NCBI GenBank assembly: GCA_004565275.1
Contig: SDOX01000122.1
Coordinates: forward strand, 1,033,665 to 1,095,381
Length of the DNA: 61,717 nt
Source of the DNA: Nannochloropsis salina CCMP1776
Taxonomy: Eukaryota > Sar > Eustigmatophyceae > Eustigmatales > Monodopsidaceae
Direction of reading: 5' to 3'
In this document: in pieces, positions 25,667 through 52,414 of the stretch
How positions within the stretch are numbered: the first letter of the stretch is position 1
Layout: each line of letters opens with the position of its first letter
The notes under the pieces: generated by a model
Seen by the model: the letters and a program-made list of their open reading frames with translations, nothing else
What the model was told of the DNA's origin: nothing
The model's database searches: none
Translations under genes and position numbers: made by a program

Positions 25667-27544
25667 TCACTGGCAAAATTCAATGATGACCCCCCTCTCC
25701 CCACCCATGGCGTTTTCCCTTCTCTGCTTAGGCCTATCCTGTCCTCGCTCCCGAGCCCGCTTCCGGGTATCCTGAAAGTCGCCATCGACCCCTCGAAAAC
25801 TTCCTTCCCGATCCTTCCTTCTCCGCTTCTGCGTGCTGCCCACGGCGGAGGGCGCGAGCGTTACCTTCTCCCCTCCCTGCTCCTCCTCCTTTCCGCCCTT
25901 CTTCTTGGGCGGGAAAATGGCTCGGGGCCCCGTCGGTCGCTTCTTCTTCTGTGCGGGCTCCTGATGGGTCCGAGGTAACGGGTGCGGTTGGCGTTGTTGT
26001 CCCTCCCTCCCTCCCTCCCTCCCTCCCTCCCTCCCTCCCTCCCTCCCTCCCTCCCTCCCTCCCTCCCTCCCTCCCTCCCGCCCTCCCCCTCTTCTTACCT
26101 CGTCCCACCACCGGGGTTGTGGTGCACATTGTGGTGGCGCCCGTGATGAGTGTGGAGGCGGTGCCGCTGGCGTCAGCTGCTGCCGTTGCCGCTCCCGGTC
26201 CACAGGGGTCGCCCGCCGGGACAAGGGTTCTCCCAGGCCTCTTTCTTTCTTCCTCTTTCCCTCCTTCAACAACCCCTCAGCTATCCCTTCCTCCTCCTCT
26301 TGCCCTCCGCCCCCATCCATCTCCTGCCTCCTCCTCTTCTTGTCTGCCCTCCTTCTCTTCCCTCCCTCCCTCCCTCCCTCCTCCCTCCCTCCTTCTTTTC
26401 CACCCTCTCTGCCCCTTTCTCGCGGTCCACTTCCACCGCGTTCGCGCCATTTTCCATCGCTTTTTTCCCATCCCACGCCGGCGCGGCGACGANNNNNNNN
26501 NNNNNNNNNNNNNNNNNNNNNNNNNNNNNNNNNNNNNNNNNNNNNNNNNNNNNNNNNNNNNNNNNNNNNNNNNNNNNNNNNNNNNNNNNNNNAGGGGAGG
26601 AGGAGAAAGACGGGGGCACCATGAGTGGCGGAAGGAGATGCTTGACATGTCAAGAGTTAGGCAGGCCACAGCCCTCCTTCCCACCCTCCTTCCCTCCCTC
26701 TGTCCCTCCCTTTGTCCCTCCCTCCCTCCCTCCCTCTGTCCCTCCCTCCTGACCAGGAGGACAGCCCCCGCGTCGTCCCTGCTCCCCGTGTAGTGATGCT
26801 TCAGGAAGCGCGCGAGAAGGAGGTAGAGTTTGTAACTGCCGAGTCCGCCCTCGAAAGGCTTATCCATTCTTCCCTGGTGCAGGAGGACCTGAGGGAGGGC
26901 GGGAGGGAGGGAGGGAGGGAGGGAGGGAGAGAAGGAGGATGCGGAGGGGGTGACGTGTCGCGACGAGAACACACGACCGTCCAGAAGGAGAATGAAGAGG
27001 AGCGGATGCTCATGCTCCCAGCTCCGATGAGCTTCCACATCCATCACAACACCGCTCCCGTTTTCTCTTCCACCCCCAGGGAAGACCCACCTTAAGCAGG
27101 ATCGCCACAGGCGCGAAGCAGGGGTGGAAGGTGCAGAGGCGCTGGAGGAGGGCGACGGCCGCGTGGTCGGGGGGGGAGACGCGGATGTCTACTTCCACCT
27201 GAGGGAGGGAGGGAGGGAGGACGGAAAGAAGGGAGGGAGGGAGAGGGAGGGAGGGAGGGAGGAAGGGAGGGAGGGAGGGAGGAAGGGAGGGAGGGAGGGA
27301 GGGAGCAAGATCGCACCTTGATCAGGTTGTTCAAGGCCTCCACCACCTTTATACGTGCACGTTGCTCCATCGGCGTCAAGGAAGCGTAGCGTTGGAAGGC
27401 TAGGAGCTCGTCATGGAGGGAGGGCGGAGGGGAGGAAGGGGGGGAGAAGGGAGGGAGGAAGGGGGGGAGGGGACGGGGGCGAGCCAGGGACATTCCTGGA
27501 GGAGGAGGGGTTCGGGGCCGAGGCGCTTGTCGATTTGACTCCAT
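25667..27544 (-). CDS. TRF4/TENT4-type nuclear poly(A) polymerase, incomplete in this assembly
   Basis: Exons 27544-27317, 27198-27091 and 26888-26754 are clear and all phase 0. They match the TRF4-5/PAPD5 family: LHDELLAFQRYASLTPMEQR, ARIKVVEALNNLIK; then VEVDIRVSPPDHAAVALLQR, with HPCFAPVAILLK; then GRMDKPFEGGLGSYKLYLLL, ARFLKHHYTG. The last piece matches the GGISSYSL segment of the central domain. These enzymes add short A tails to nuclear RNAs for exosome decay. The roughly 80 residues carrying the catalytic GS...DxD motif should lie between exons 1 and 2, but only 118 bases of GGGA repeat are present there. A 100-N gap (26493-26592) interrupts the gene downstream. A basic C-terminus (KKKRPTGPRAIFPPKKKGG ... 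RGVIIEFCQ) ending at 25667 probably belongs to it. Start ATG at 27544; 27610 is an in-frame alternative to check. Confidence 0.7.
26001..26079. repeat. (CCCT)n tract, about 79 bp
   Basis: One of the longest uninterrupted runs in the window. It lies in the damaged TENT4-like gene. On that gene's sense strand it reads GGGA, so here the purine strand is sense, the opposite of most introns in the window. Confidence 0.95.
26493..26592. other. Assembly gap of 100 N
   Basis: Exactly 100 N, the conventional placeholder for a gap of unknown size, inside the TENT4-like gene. Bases on both sides are low-complexity. Confidence 1.
27199..27316. repeat. GGGA repeat intron replacing an expected catalytic exon
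   Basis: The whole 118-base interval between exons 1 and 2 of the TENT4-like gene is GGGA repeat with AAGG interruptions. It functions formally as a GT-AG intron (GTGCGA...CTCAG on the minus strand), yet the family needs an exon here. Confidence 0.8.
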
Positions 27545-48990: not shown

Positions 48991-51900
48991 TCAAAATTCT
49001 TTGGAATCTTCAGCCCCTCCCCGTAACTTGCGAACCCCTCCCTCCCTCCCTCCCTCCCTCCCCTCTGCCCCCAGTCCCTCCTCCACCCCCGCCCACGACC
49101 GCATCACTTGCATTCGGTTCCCTCCACTTTCCTCCCTCCTGGCCATGGCCCGATTCGCCTCCCCCACCTCCGCATCCGCCACGGTTTTGTGCTTCGTTTC
49201 TGCCACTCCTCCTTCCTCTGCCCCGACCTCCGTCCCTCCCTCCGACACCGTGTCCCACAAGGAGCGGACGCGCAGGCTCGCGAGGAATCCCTCCCTCCCG
49301 CCGGACATGGGGCCGTTCCGAGGGGTGAAAGTGATGCTTTTGACCTCATCTTTCCGAAGGTGGAAGGCATTGTCCGAGAAAATCCCGGGGCGGCCCATCG
49401 CCTCCACGAAGACAAAGAGGGCCGTATTGTCTGCGTGCACCCTCAGTTCCAACGGGGAGGACGGGGTGGAGGGAGCGGGGGAGGCGTCGATCTGCAGCGT
49501 GGCGCGGGGCAGGACCACGTCCTTGAGGACCGTGAAGTGCACGACTGCCAGGGGGGGAGGAGGGAGGGAGGGAGGGAGGGAGGGAGGGAGGGAGGGAGGG
49601 AGGGAGGGAGGGAGGGAGGGGAGGAGGGAAGGAGGGAGGAAGGAAGAGGTAAGGACGCACGAAAGCATGGACTATTTAAAATTGAAAAGGATCTTGGGAT
49701 GCAGGGGTTGAAAGAGGGAAAGGAAGGAAGAAAGGAAGGAAGGAAGGGAGGGAAGGAGGGAGGGAGAATGACGGACGCACCGAACCATGTTCATGTTGGC
49801 GTCGACGGATGACTGTAGAAGCCACTCAATGTCTTCGTCGTCCGCCTGAGGGAGGGAGGGAGGGAGGGAGAGAGGGATGGAGGGAGGGAAGGAGGAGGCA
49901 CTGACTTGCTGCCACACAACAGAGGGGAAGGGAGGGAGGGAGGGAGGGAGGGAGAGAGGGAAGAAGAGAAGGAGGGATTCGCACCTCATTGTAGAAGACA
50001 CCGATGGGGATGATGTTAGCGCCCTTGGCGAAGATGGGGACGTGATTAACCTCGAAGTAGAAGGAGAGGCCTTCCGAGCCAGGCACGGGCTCCTCCACCA
50101 GGCGGACGGTCCGAATCCCCACGTTCTTGACCTGAGGGAGGGGGCAAGGGAGGGATGGAGGAAGGGATGGAGGGAGGAAAGGAGGATGGAGAATGGGTGA
50201 CGGGGCGTCTCGGCGGTTTGAATGCTGCGCGCTTTTTTTCCTCCCTCCCTCCCTCCCTCCCTCCCTCCCTCCTTACCTTGCTCTGCCCCGCCATGCTCAC
50301 TACTAGCTTGTAAAGGTGAGGCTTTCCCAGCCCCACCGGCCACCAGAGCTCGGGTTCCGCGATCGAGAAGGTTTGGATCACCTGATGAGGAGGGAAGGAG
50401 CACGAGGTGGAGGGGAGAGGGGGGGGGGGAGCGGGGAAGGTTGGTGGAGAAGCGAGTCGGCAAGGAGGGAGGGAGGGAAGGAGGGAAGGAGGGAGGGAGG
50501 GAAGGAGGGAGGGAAGGAGAGAGGGAGGGATCGCGCCTACCTCGTTCTCGCCAGGGACCAGGCTCACATCGACCGAGATAGGAGCATTGCCACTCTCCTG
50601 ATGAGGGGGGAAGGAAGGGGAGGTAAAGAAGGGAAGGAGCCCGCGTGAGAGCTGAAAAGGAAGGCAAGGTAGCGGACCTGGGTGCCCGCATCCAACATGG
50701 GCCTCCCTCCCTTCCTCCCTCCCTCCCTTCCTCCCTCCCAACCTGCAGGTCCAGGACGAGGGTGGTCTGGGCGGCGGCGGGGACGTGCGAGATGAAGGTT
50801 CGGGTCGTGATTAACACGGAGCCGTCGTCTTGGAAGGCCTGCTCAGGGAGGGAGGGAGGGAGGGAGGGAGGGAGNNNNNNNNNNNNNNNNNNNNNNNNNN
50901 NNNNNNNNNNNNNNNNNNNNNNNNNNNNNNNNNNNNNNNNNNNNNNNNNNNNNNNNNNNNNNNNNNNNNNNNNNATAAAGGACTGGGCTGCGGTCAGATT
51001 GCTCCCACGCAGGAGCGTCTTGGCCGGAGACTGGAAAACCAGGGCGCTGGGGGAGGGAGGGAGGGAGGGAGGGAGGGAGGGAGGGAGGGAGGGAGAGAGC
51101 ATTGAGGCGGTAGAAACGAAGTGTAAATTTCAAGGGAGGGGGCGAGAAAACCATGACAAATCCATCAACGATGCCGCTATGCCATGTGAACGGATCGACA
51201 TAGAAAGGAAAATAGGACGGAAAGGGGGGAGGGAAGGAGGTAGGTAGGGAGGTAGGTAGGGAGGAAGGGAGGGAGGGAGGGATCACCTGTCGTTGCCCTG
51301 GAGGGAGACGGTCTGATTCCATTCATTGAGGGCCACAGCGCTGTCTTTGTAGGCATAAAGACGCACATTAAGCTCGCCCTGGACCGTGTCGGAAGGTTTA
51401 AGATCACTGGGGAGGAAGGGAGGGAGGGAGAGAGGGAGGGGTAGCAGAGAAGAGACTTAAGCGTGTGCAGTCGATGGCAATTTTTCAAGAGAGCCTCCCC
51501 TTCAGTACGAAGCAAAGACAAGGAAGGAAGGGAGGAAGGAGGGAGGGAGGGAGGGAGGGAGGGAGGGAGGGAGGGAGAGAAAAAAATGGGGCGCAGATGA
51601 CAGTGGCCATGGGAGGGAAGAAATAATAAGCAAGGGGGAGGAGAAACCAGGGAGTCACGCAGGGAGGGAGGGAGGGAGGGGCCTACCTTGAGGTCGACCT
51701 CCGTAGAATAGGTCCACGCGTCTTTACAAACCCATTGGTATTTGATCTCGTTGTCCCGGTAGAGAGGATCCTCTGAGGGCAGAGGGAGGGGAACAGGAAG
51801 GCTCAGAAGACGCTCTGCCCGTCCCAATGTGCATCCATCCCCTCCCTCCCTCCCTTCCTCCCTCCCTCCTTTGCCACGCACCTTCCAGAATGCCTTGCTT

Positions 51901-52414
51901 ACGAAGGTCCAAATGGACCGTGCCGGGGACTGCTGCGTCGTCCACATGGTACGTGCCATCGCGCTGCCAAACAGGGCGGGGAGGGAGCAGGGAGGGAGGG
52001 AGGGAGGGAGGGAGGGAGGGAAAGGGTTTCCAGACAGGTTGAGCTTCAAATGCAAGACGCAGTGGAAGGCTTGTGCATGGCGCCAGGCTGCGAGCCGGAG
52101 GTCAAATTGTGACAATGGACATATTCTACGTATTGCCTTGCGCTCAAGATCGATTCGAGTCACGGAGGGGCTCGATCTCACTCACTCCTTCCATGGGACT
52201 ACCCCGACCTTTCCCGACACCGAAAAATAGAAAGCGAACCTATATTTTCCAGGCCCCCCTGTTTATCACGTACATTGGAGAGCTTCCAGACCTGGCCATC
52301 CTTGCTGTTGAGCGAAAAAAAAGACGCGGCCTGCGAAACCACGGCCTTCGCATCGTGGCGCTTCGCCTCCCCGGAGAGCGTCGAAAGGAGGAGGAATTGA
52401 AAGGCGAAGAGCAT
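48991..52414 (-). CDS. MANBA: GH2 beta-mannosidase, exons out of order and catalytic core absent in this assembly
   Basis: ATG 52414 starts a signal peptide (MLFAFQFLLLSTLSGEA). Exons 52414-52274, 51963-51882 and 51772-51687 give the N-terminal domain: AVPGTVHLDLRKQGILEEDP, LYRDNEIKYQWVCKDAWTYS. Exons 51406-51287 and 51046-50975 (SDLKPSDTVQGELNVRLYAY; ALVFQSPAKTLLRGS) look like the C-terminal region after the barrel (human VSDLHSDYSMTLSVRVHTW). After a gap, exons 50838-50743, 50597-50541, 50381-50277, 50131-49985 and 49845-49781 give the middle: ELWWPVGLGKPHLYKL, RTVRLVEEPVPGSEGLSFYF, WLLQSSVDANMNMVR. Exon 49544 onward is the C-terminus (MGRPGIFSDNAFHLRKDEVK). The TIM barrel with both catalytic Glu residues is missing. 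The enzyme removes terminal beta-mannose from N-glycan remnants in the vacuole/lysosome. Confidence 0.8.
49557..49624. repeat. (GGGA)n tract at the missing catalytic domain of beta-mannosidase
   Basis: About 68 bases of pure repeat between exons 49845-49781 and 49544-. Family comparison demands several hundred residues of TIM barrel here. A second interrupted tract lies at 49718-49770. Confidence 0.95.
50875..50974. other. Assembly gap of 100 N
   Basis: Exactly 100 N, bordered on the left by GGGA repeat, cutting a beta-mannosidase exon (sequence resumes at 50975 within coding). Confidence 1.
51050..51096. repeat. (GGGA)n tract
   Basis: About 46 bases, CCCT on the beta-mannosidase sense strand, directly before the acceptor of the exon starting at 51046. 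Similar tracts lie at 51536-51577 and 51988-52021. Confidence 0.9.

Follow-up and report, generated by a model that had tools for sequence, protein, structure and literature searches.

Do the exons of a GH2 beta-mannosidase gene in Nannochloropsis salina CCMP1776 lie out of order in the chromosome itself, or only in the draft scaffold that represents it? The question is raised by positions 52414-48991 of the window, the whole stretch of 61,717 nucleotides analysed here (C15:1033665-1095381), which forms the terminal part of a 1,095,381-base contig in an assembly of 26.5 Mb and 103 contigs. A first inspection of the letters alone, below called the sequence-only reading, had noted that two exons resembling the post-barrel part of the enzyme lie 5' of exons for the middle of the protein, and had named repeat-driven scrambling of the scaffold as the simplest explanation, with a truly rearranged pseudogene as the alternative.

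Results

Four exon blocks of a predicted beta-mannosidase

Eleven minus-strand exons at the locus are pieces of a GH2 beta-mannosidase (Table 1). They fall into four blocks: E (E1-E3, 52414-51687), A (A1-A2, 51406-50975), B (B1-B5, 50838-49781) and C (a single exon, 49544-48991). In each of the 11 exons the chosen frame is open, and the splice borders are canonical, as in a working gene. Judged from its family membership, the gene is predicted to encode a beta-mannosidase that hydrolyses beta-mannosides. Exon C extends for about 80 residues beyond its Ig domain (48991-49240), and this tail is rich in glycine, glutamate and arginine and includes a translated GGGA repeat (49036-49062).

Table 1. 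Exons, apparent introns and gap of the beta-mannosidase locus, in window positions.
Feature	Position	Strand	Description
Exon E1	52274..52414	-	ATG at 52414, hydrophobic signal-like stretch, start of N-terminal domain; GT donor, phase 0
Exon E2	51882..51963	-	N-terminal sugar-binding-like domain, VPGTVHLDL; phase 0 in, 1 out; PF22666 with E1 and E3
Exon E3	51687..51772	-	N-terminal domain, DPLYRDNEIKYQW; phase 0 end; PF22666 for E1-E3
Apparent intron E3/A1	51407..51686	-	Phase clash, 0 vs 2; TCCC arrays 51538-51577 and 51661-51680; longest pure run 40 nt
Exon A1	51287..51406	-	Displaced post-barrel Mannosidase_ig; PF17786 jointly with A2, no match alone
Exon A2	50975..51046	-	Mannosidase_ig continued, runs into gap; phase 2 join with A1; PF17786
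100-N gap	50875..50974	.	Cuts exon A2; other side adjoins GGGA array 50845-50874
Exon B1	50743..50838	-	Pre-barrel domain; phase 0 in and out
Exon B2	50541..50597	-	Pre-barrel domain; phase 0 in and out
Exon B3	50277..50381	-	Pre-barrel domain, PELWWPVGLGKPHLY; PF00703 for B1-B5; resembles relatives
Exon B4	49985..50131	-	Transition from domain to barrel, VGIRTVRL...FAKGANIIP; about 50% identity to bacterial GH2 enzymes
Exon B5	49781..49845	-	TIM barrel start, DANMNMVR; phase 2 end; subsequent family residues (WGGG...) absent
Apparent intron B5/C	49545..49780	-	Phase clash, 2 vs 1; 60-nt pure repeat run, longest among the gene's introns
Exon C	48991..49544	-	C-terminal Ig_mannosidase domain, repeat-rich tail, stop; PF17753

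Order of the blocks relative to the protein family

Pfam searches assigned block E to PF22666 (positions 1-58 of 167, E 3.6e-13), block B to PF00703 (58-109 of 109, E 4.4e-8), block C to PF17753, Ig_mannosidase (15-81 of 81, E 4.6e-17), and block A to PF17786, Mannosidase_ig (13-61 of 91, E 6.7e-5). Both PF17753 and PF17786 exceed the Pfam cut-off in this gene, the latter barely (23.8 bits against 23.4), and exon C is the sole PF17753 match at E <= 0.001 across the assembly. On a profile of four full-length relatives, which were taken from plasmid records, E occupied columns 34-101, B 278-432, A 757-802 and C 826-903. The family order is E, B, A, C, whereas the window has E, A, gap, B, C, that is, the N-terminus, the post-barrel Ig domain, the 100-N gap, the pre-barrel domains with the start of the barrel, and the C-terminal Ig domain. 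Exons 51406-51287 and 51046-50975 are post-barrel by their PF17786 match, just above the cut-off, and stand upstream of mid-protein exons, in line with the sequence-only reading.

When the block translations were compared with the GH2 family, the check that this reading had proposed, E, B and C were firmly placed, and the placement of A, the least secure of the four, depended mainly on its one Pfam match. A search of the PDB with E2-E3 plus B returned beta-mannosidase 6ddt (residues 31-75 and 276-377), a mouse-type enzyme whose residues 31-75 match the E3 region; C retrieved one beta-mannosidase (E 0.058), and A one unrelated, insignificant match (E 1.6). NCBIfam gave nothing above its cut-offs for A or B. 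None of ten decoys of A (nine shuffles and one reversal) matched PF17786, and two of them matched other families below the cut-off (E 0.02 and 0.085). PF17786 was not detected in the six-frame genome search, in which the domain is split over two exons.

On the four-relative profile, A scored 0.2 bits, higher than all 50 of its shuffles. A 20-sequence profile, built from the four plasmid relatives and 16 of 29 loci (in the other 13, no open frame containing the barrel-start motif reached 700 aa), brought no gain for the placement of A, which reached 0.2 bits there, lower than the best of 200 shuffles (1.7 bits). Both of our own profiles nonetheless gave A its best, insignificant alignment between B and C (757-802 and 754-798, respectively). 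In addition, the GLDT and NM residues, which all four relatives share without variation in their N-terminal half, are missing from A.

Intron phases break where the family order breaks

All seven testable joins within blocks (E1/E2, E2/E3, A1/A2, B1/B2, B2/B3, B3/B4 and B4/B5) are phase-consistent and have GT..AG borders, which bears out the earlier remark that exons join cleanly inside the blocks. Both ungapped joins between blocks clash. Exon E3 stops at 51687 on a whole codon (phase 0), and A1, which begins at 51406 with T|GAT, requires two upstream bases (phase 2); joined straight to E3, it opens with a TGA stop. Exon B5 ends at 49781 in CG (phase 2), and C, which begins at 49544 with TC|GTG, requires one upstream base (phase 1). 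For E2, E3, B1 and C, the exact ends were determined by manual reading of the window sequence. For both clashes, the coordinates and phases given by the sequence-only reading proved correct, and the clashing joins are the same two at which the family order breaks. In the family order the joins are phase-compatible, with B5/A1 at 2/2 and E3/B1 at 0/0, although the latter agreement says little, phase 0 being the phase of five of the seven tested joins.

Repeats in the introns and at the gaps

Arrays of the GGGA/TCCC type are present in all introns of the gene. Among its nine complete introns, the two suspect ones, B5/C and E3/A1, rank first and third by longest pure repeat run (60 and 40 nt), and they have a 41-nt exact match in common. 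The A1/A2 intron carries a 44-nt run and has 43 and 45 nt in common with the two suspect introns. The claim that repeat lies at both breakpoints and at the gap holds, a GGGA array adjoining the gap. Since every intron of the gene carries some array, however, the presence of repeat at both breakpoints alone carries little weight; chance would give ranks 1 and 3 of 9 in about one case in 12. Such arrays are also widespread elsewhere, the repeat parts of the locus matching many contigs (393 matches, the locus itself included).

A survey of 261,717 bases, comprising the window and 20 stretches of the same contig, found three gaps, a small number, each of exactly 100 N, as would be expected of placeholders of unknown size. 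Two of the three adjoin a GGGA/TCCC array and one lies farther than 60 nt from any, compared with 3.5% of bases that lie within 60 nt of an array. A second 100-N gap in the window (26493-26592) has TCCC arrays about 115 and 122 nt away (26359-26378 and 26715-26734).

About half of the protein is absent

From the alignment to an 863-aa relative (L010) we estimate the missing sequence at about 140 residues of the N-terminal domain between E and B and about 300 residues, nearly the whole catalytic barrel, between B and A. By the same family alignment, only about 15 residues are lacking between A and C; overall, about half of the protein is absent. PF22666 is represented in the window by positions 1-58 of 167 only. 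The absence of the barrel and of part of the N-terminal domain goes beyond what the sequence-only reading had observed.

In searches of the window and the assembly, the catalytic TIM barrel with its WGGG and WQDF motifs was absent from the scaffold after DANMNMVR. Neither the missing barrel nor the N-terminal half was recovered from the 103-contig assembly by Pfam families, by a full-length relative, by barrel and N-terminal pieces, or by three motif patterns, each of which matches all four relatives (one pattern allowed one mismatch, the other two none). Two WGGGxYE matches were obtained in the assembly, neither in a barrel-like context, and tblastn of the four relatives against the window gave weak chance matches and no convincing barrel exon. 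The search with a full-length relative recovered exons B4 and E3, at about 50% identity, and no other exons of this gene; short or diverged barrel exons could therefore have escaped it, and the gene in the cell may still have a TIM barrel with WGGG and WQDF. No second copy or alternative contig in the right order was present among the matches listed (40 of 367 candidates scored), and the matches listed when the locus was searched against the assembly were the locus itself and short matches to repeat stretches elsewhere.

One barrel match was considered and rejected as the missing piece. PF02836 was detected on contig C37 only, in an uninterrupted frame of another GH2 enzyme that the mannosidase queries did not match; the same frame holds a PF22666 match below the cut-off. 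This different enzyme has a complete barrel (C37:675886-676770, PF02836 positions 1-302 of 302, E 1.9e-96) and is encoded by a single open frame of 1394 aa without interruption, whereas the beta-mannosidase gene is rich in introns. By its motifs, it looks like a LacZ-type beta-galactosidase.

Discussion

We observed a displaced exon order, phase clashes and repeat-bearing introns, and found neither the missing pieces nor a second copy; we infer that the break belongs to the assembly rather than to the chromosome. Very probably, the locus is an ordinary GH2 beta-mannosidase gene that was wrongly assembled in the draft scaffold through repeats, with two unique blocks swapped and others dropped, and it is not a new biological feature. 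Introns with similar GGGA/TCCC arrays would separate short unique segments of the gene, and at least three copies of one repeat between such segments would make the order of the enclosed segments ambiguous to an assembler. With r for the repeat, a path E - r - B - r - A - C may thus have been resolved as E - r - A - gap - B - r - C, while the unique pieces leading from E to B (about 140 aa) and from B to A (about 300 aa, the greater part of the barrel) would have been dropped. The two chimeric joins lie in ungapped sequence, so that the assembler must have closed them falsely if this scheme is right. Misassembly of this kind explains the swapped blocks, the clashing phases, the gap in exon A2, the repeat at the breaks and the lost unique sequence. 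Repeat-driven scrambling, as first proposed, is hence retained as the best reading and fits the repeat evidence, but reordering alone is insufficient for this locus because of the missing N-terminal and barrel residues; the error would be a swap plus sequence loss.

Arrays that confuse assemblers can also promote recombination, and recombination between intronic repeats could have deleted the barrel and swapped two blocks in the chromosome, leaving a recent pseudogene. A true deletion would likewise leave parts that searches of the assembly do not recover, and the lack of a second copy among the matches listed is also consistent with such a history. Nevertheless we regard it as unlikely: it needs several events (a swap and two deletions), with all breaks falling in introns and no decay, the exon frames being open and the splice borders canonical, and it leaves the placeholder gap inside exon A2 unexplained. 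That the order is real in the chromosome, in a beta-mannosidase gene freshly shuffled through recombination between the tetranucleotide arrays of its introns and now either nonfunctional or rescued by trans-splicing, seems to us quite unlikely.

Very unlikely, in our view, is that block A is truly part of the N-terminal domain and in its correct place, with only the gap and some exons at fault. This reading can appeal to the insignificance of the post-barrel placement of A on two of the three profiles. Against it, no match of A to the N-terminal jelly-roll, the result that the sequence-only reading had named as contradicting its proposal, was obtained; its sole Pfam match is the post-barrel PF17786, both other profiles align it best, if insignificantly, between B and C, and it lacks residues that the four relatives all share in their N-terminal half. 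Moreover, the E3/A1 clash gives a stop, and the B/C clash and the missing barrel are left unexplained. A genuinely scrambled gene whose pieces are ordered by trans-splicing or DNA rearrangement would suit the phase-consistent exon run of each block but is extremely improbable, as searches of the assembly did not recover the barrel pieces, an assembly gap forms one of the three block joins, and we are not aware of any comparable mechanism acting on a nuclear gene of this type.

If the locus is misassembled as we propose, genes of this assembly whose introns contain GGGA/TCCC arrays can have models with scrambled or missing exons, and similar errors may affect other genes given how widespread these arrays are. 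The absence of the barrel here should not be taken as loss of the beta-mannosidase enzyme. Intron phase together with domain order offers a cheap test for such errors.

Comparison with known systems

The gene is like GH2 beta-mannosidases of known structure (PDB 6ddt and 2je8) in that its pieces from the N-terminus, the pre-barrel domains and the start of the barrel have sequence matches there, and like the family at large in that its C-terminal Ig pieces match the family's Pfam domains. It is unlike 6ddt and 2je8 in the order of its pieces in the window and in lacking the greater part of the barrel, along with half of the N-terminal domain, there. Literature searches returned nothing on this gene among the matches listed. 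The closest parallel is the rhesus macaque draft genome, for which passages of the published account describe missing exons, genes split by assembly errors and the detection of misassemblies through anomalies in conserved exon order (PMC3426473). That case concerns a vertebrate, and the tetranucleotide-repeat cause proposed here is absent from those passages; the two cases are alike in their missing exons, in their split genes and in the use of exon-order anomalies as a detector of misassembly.
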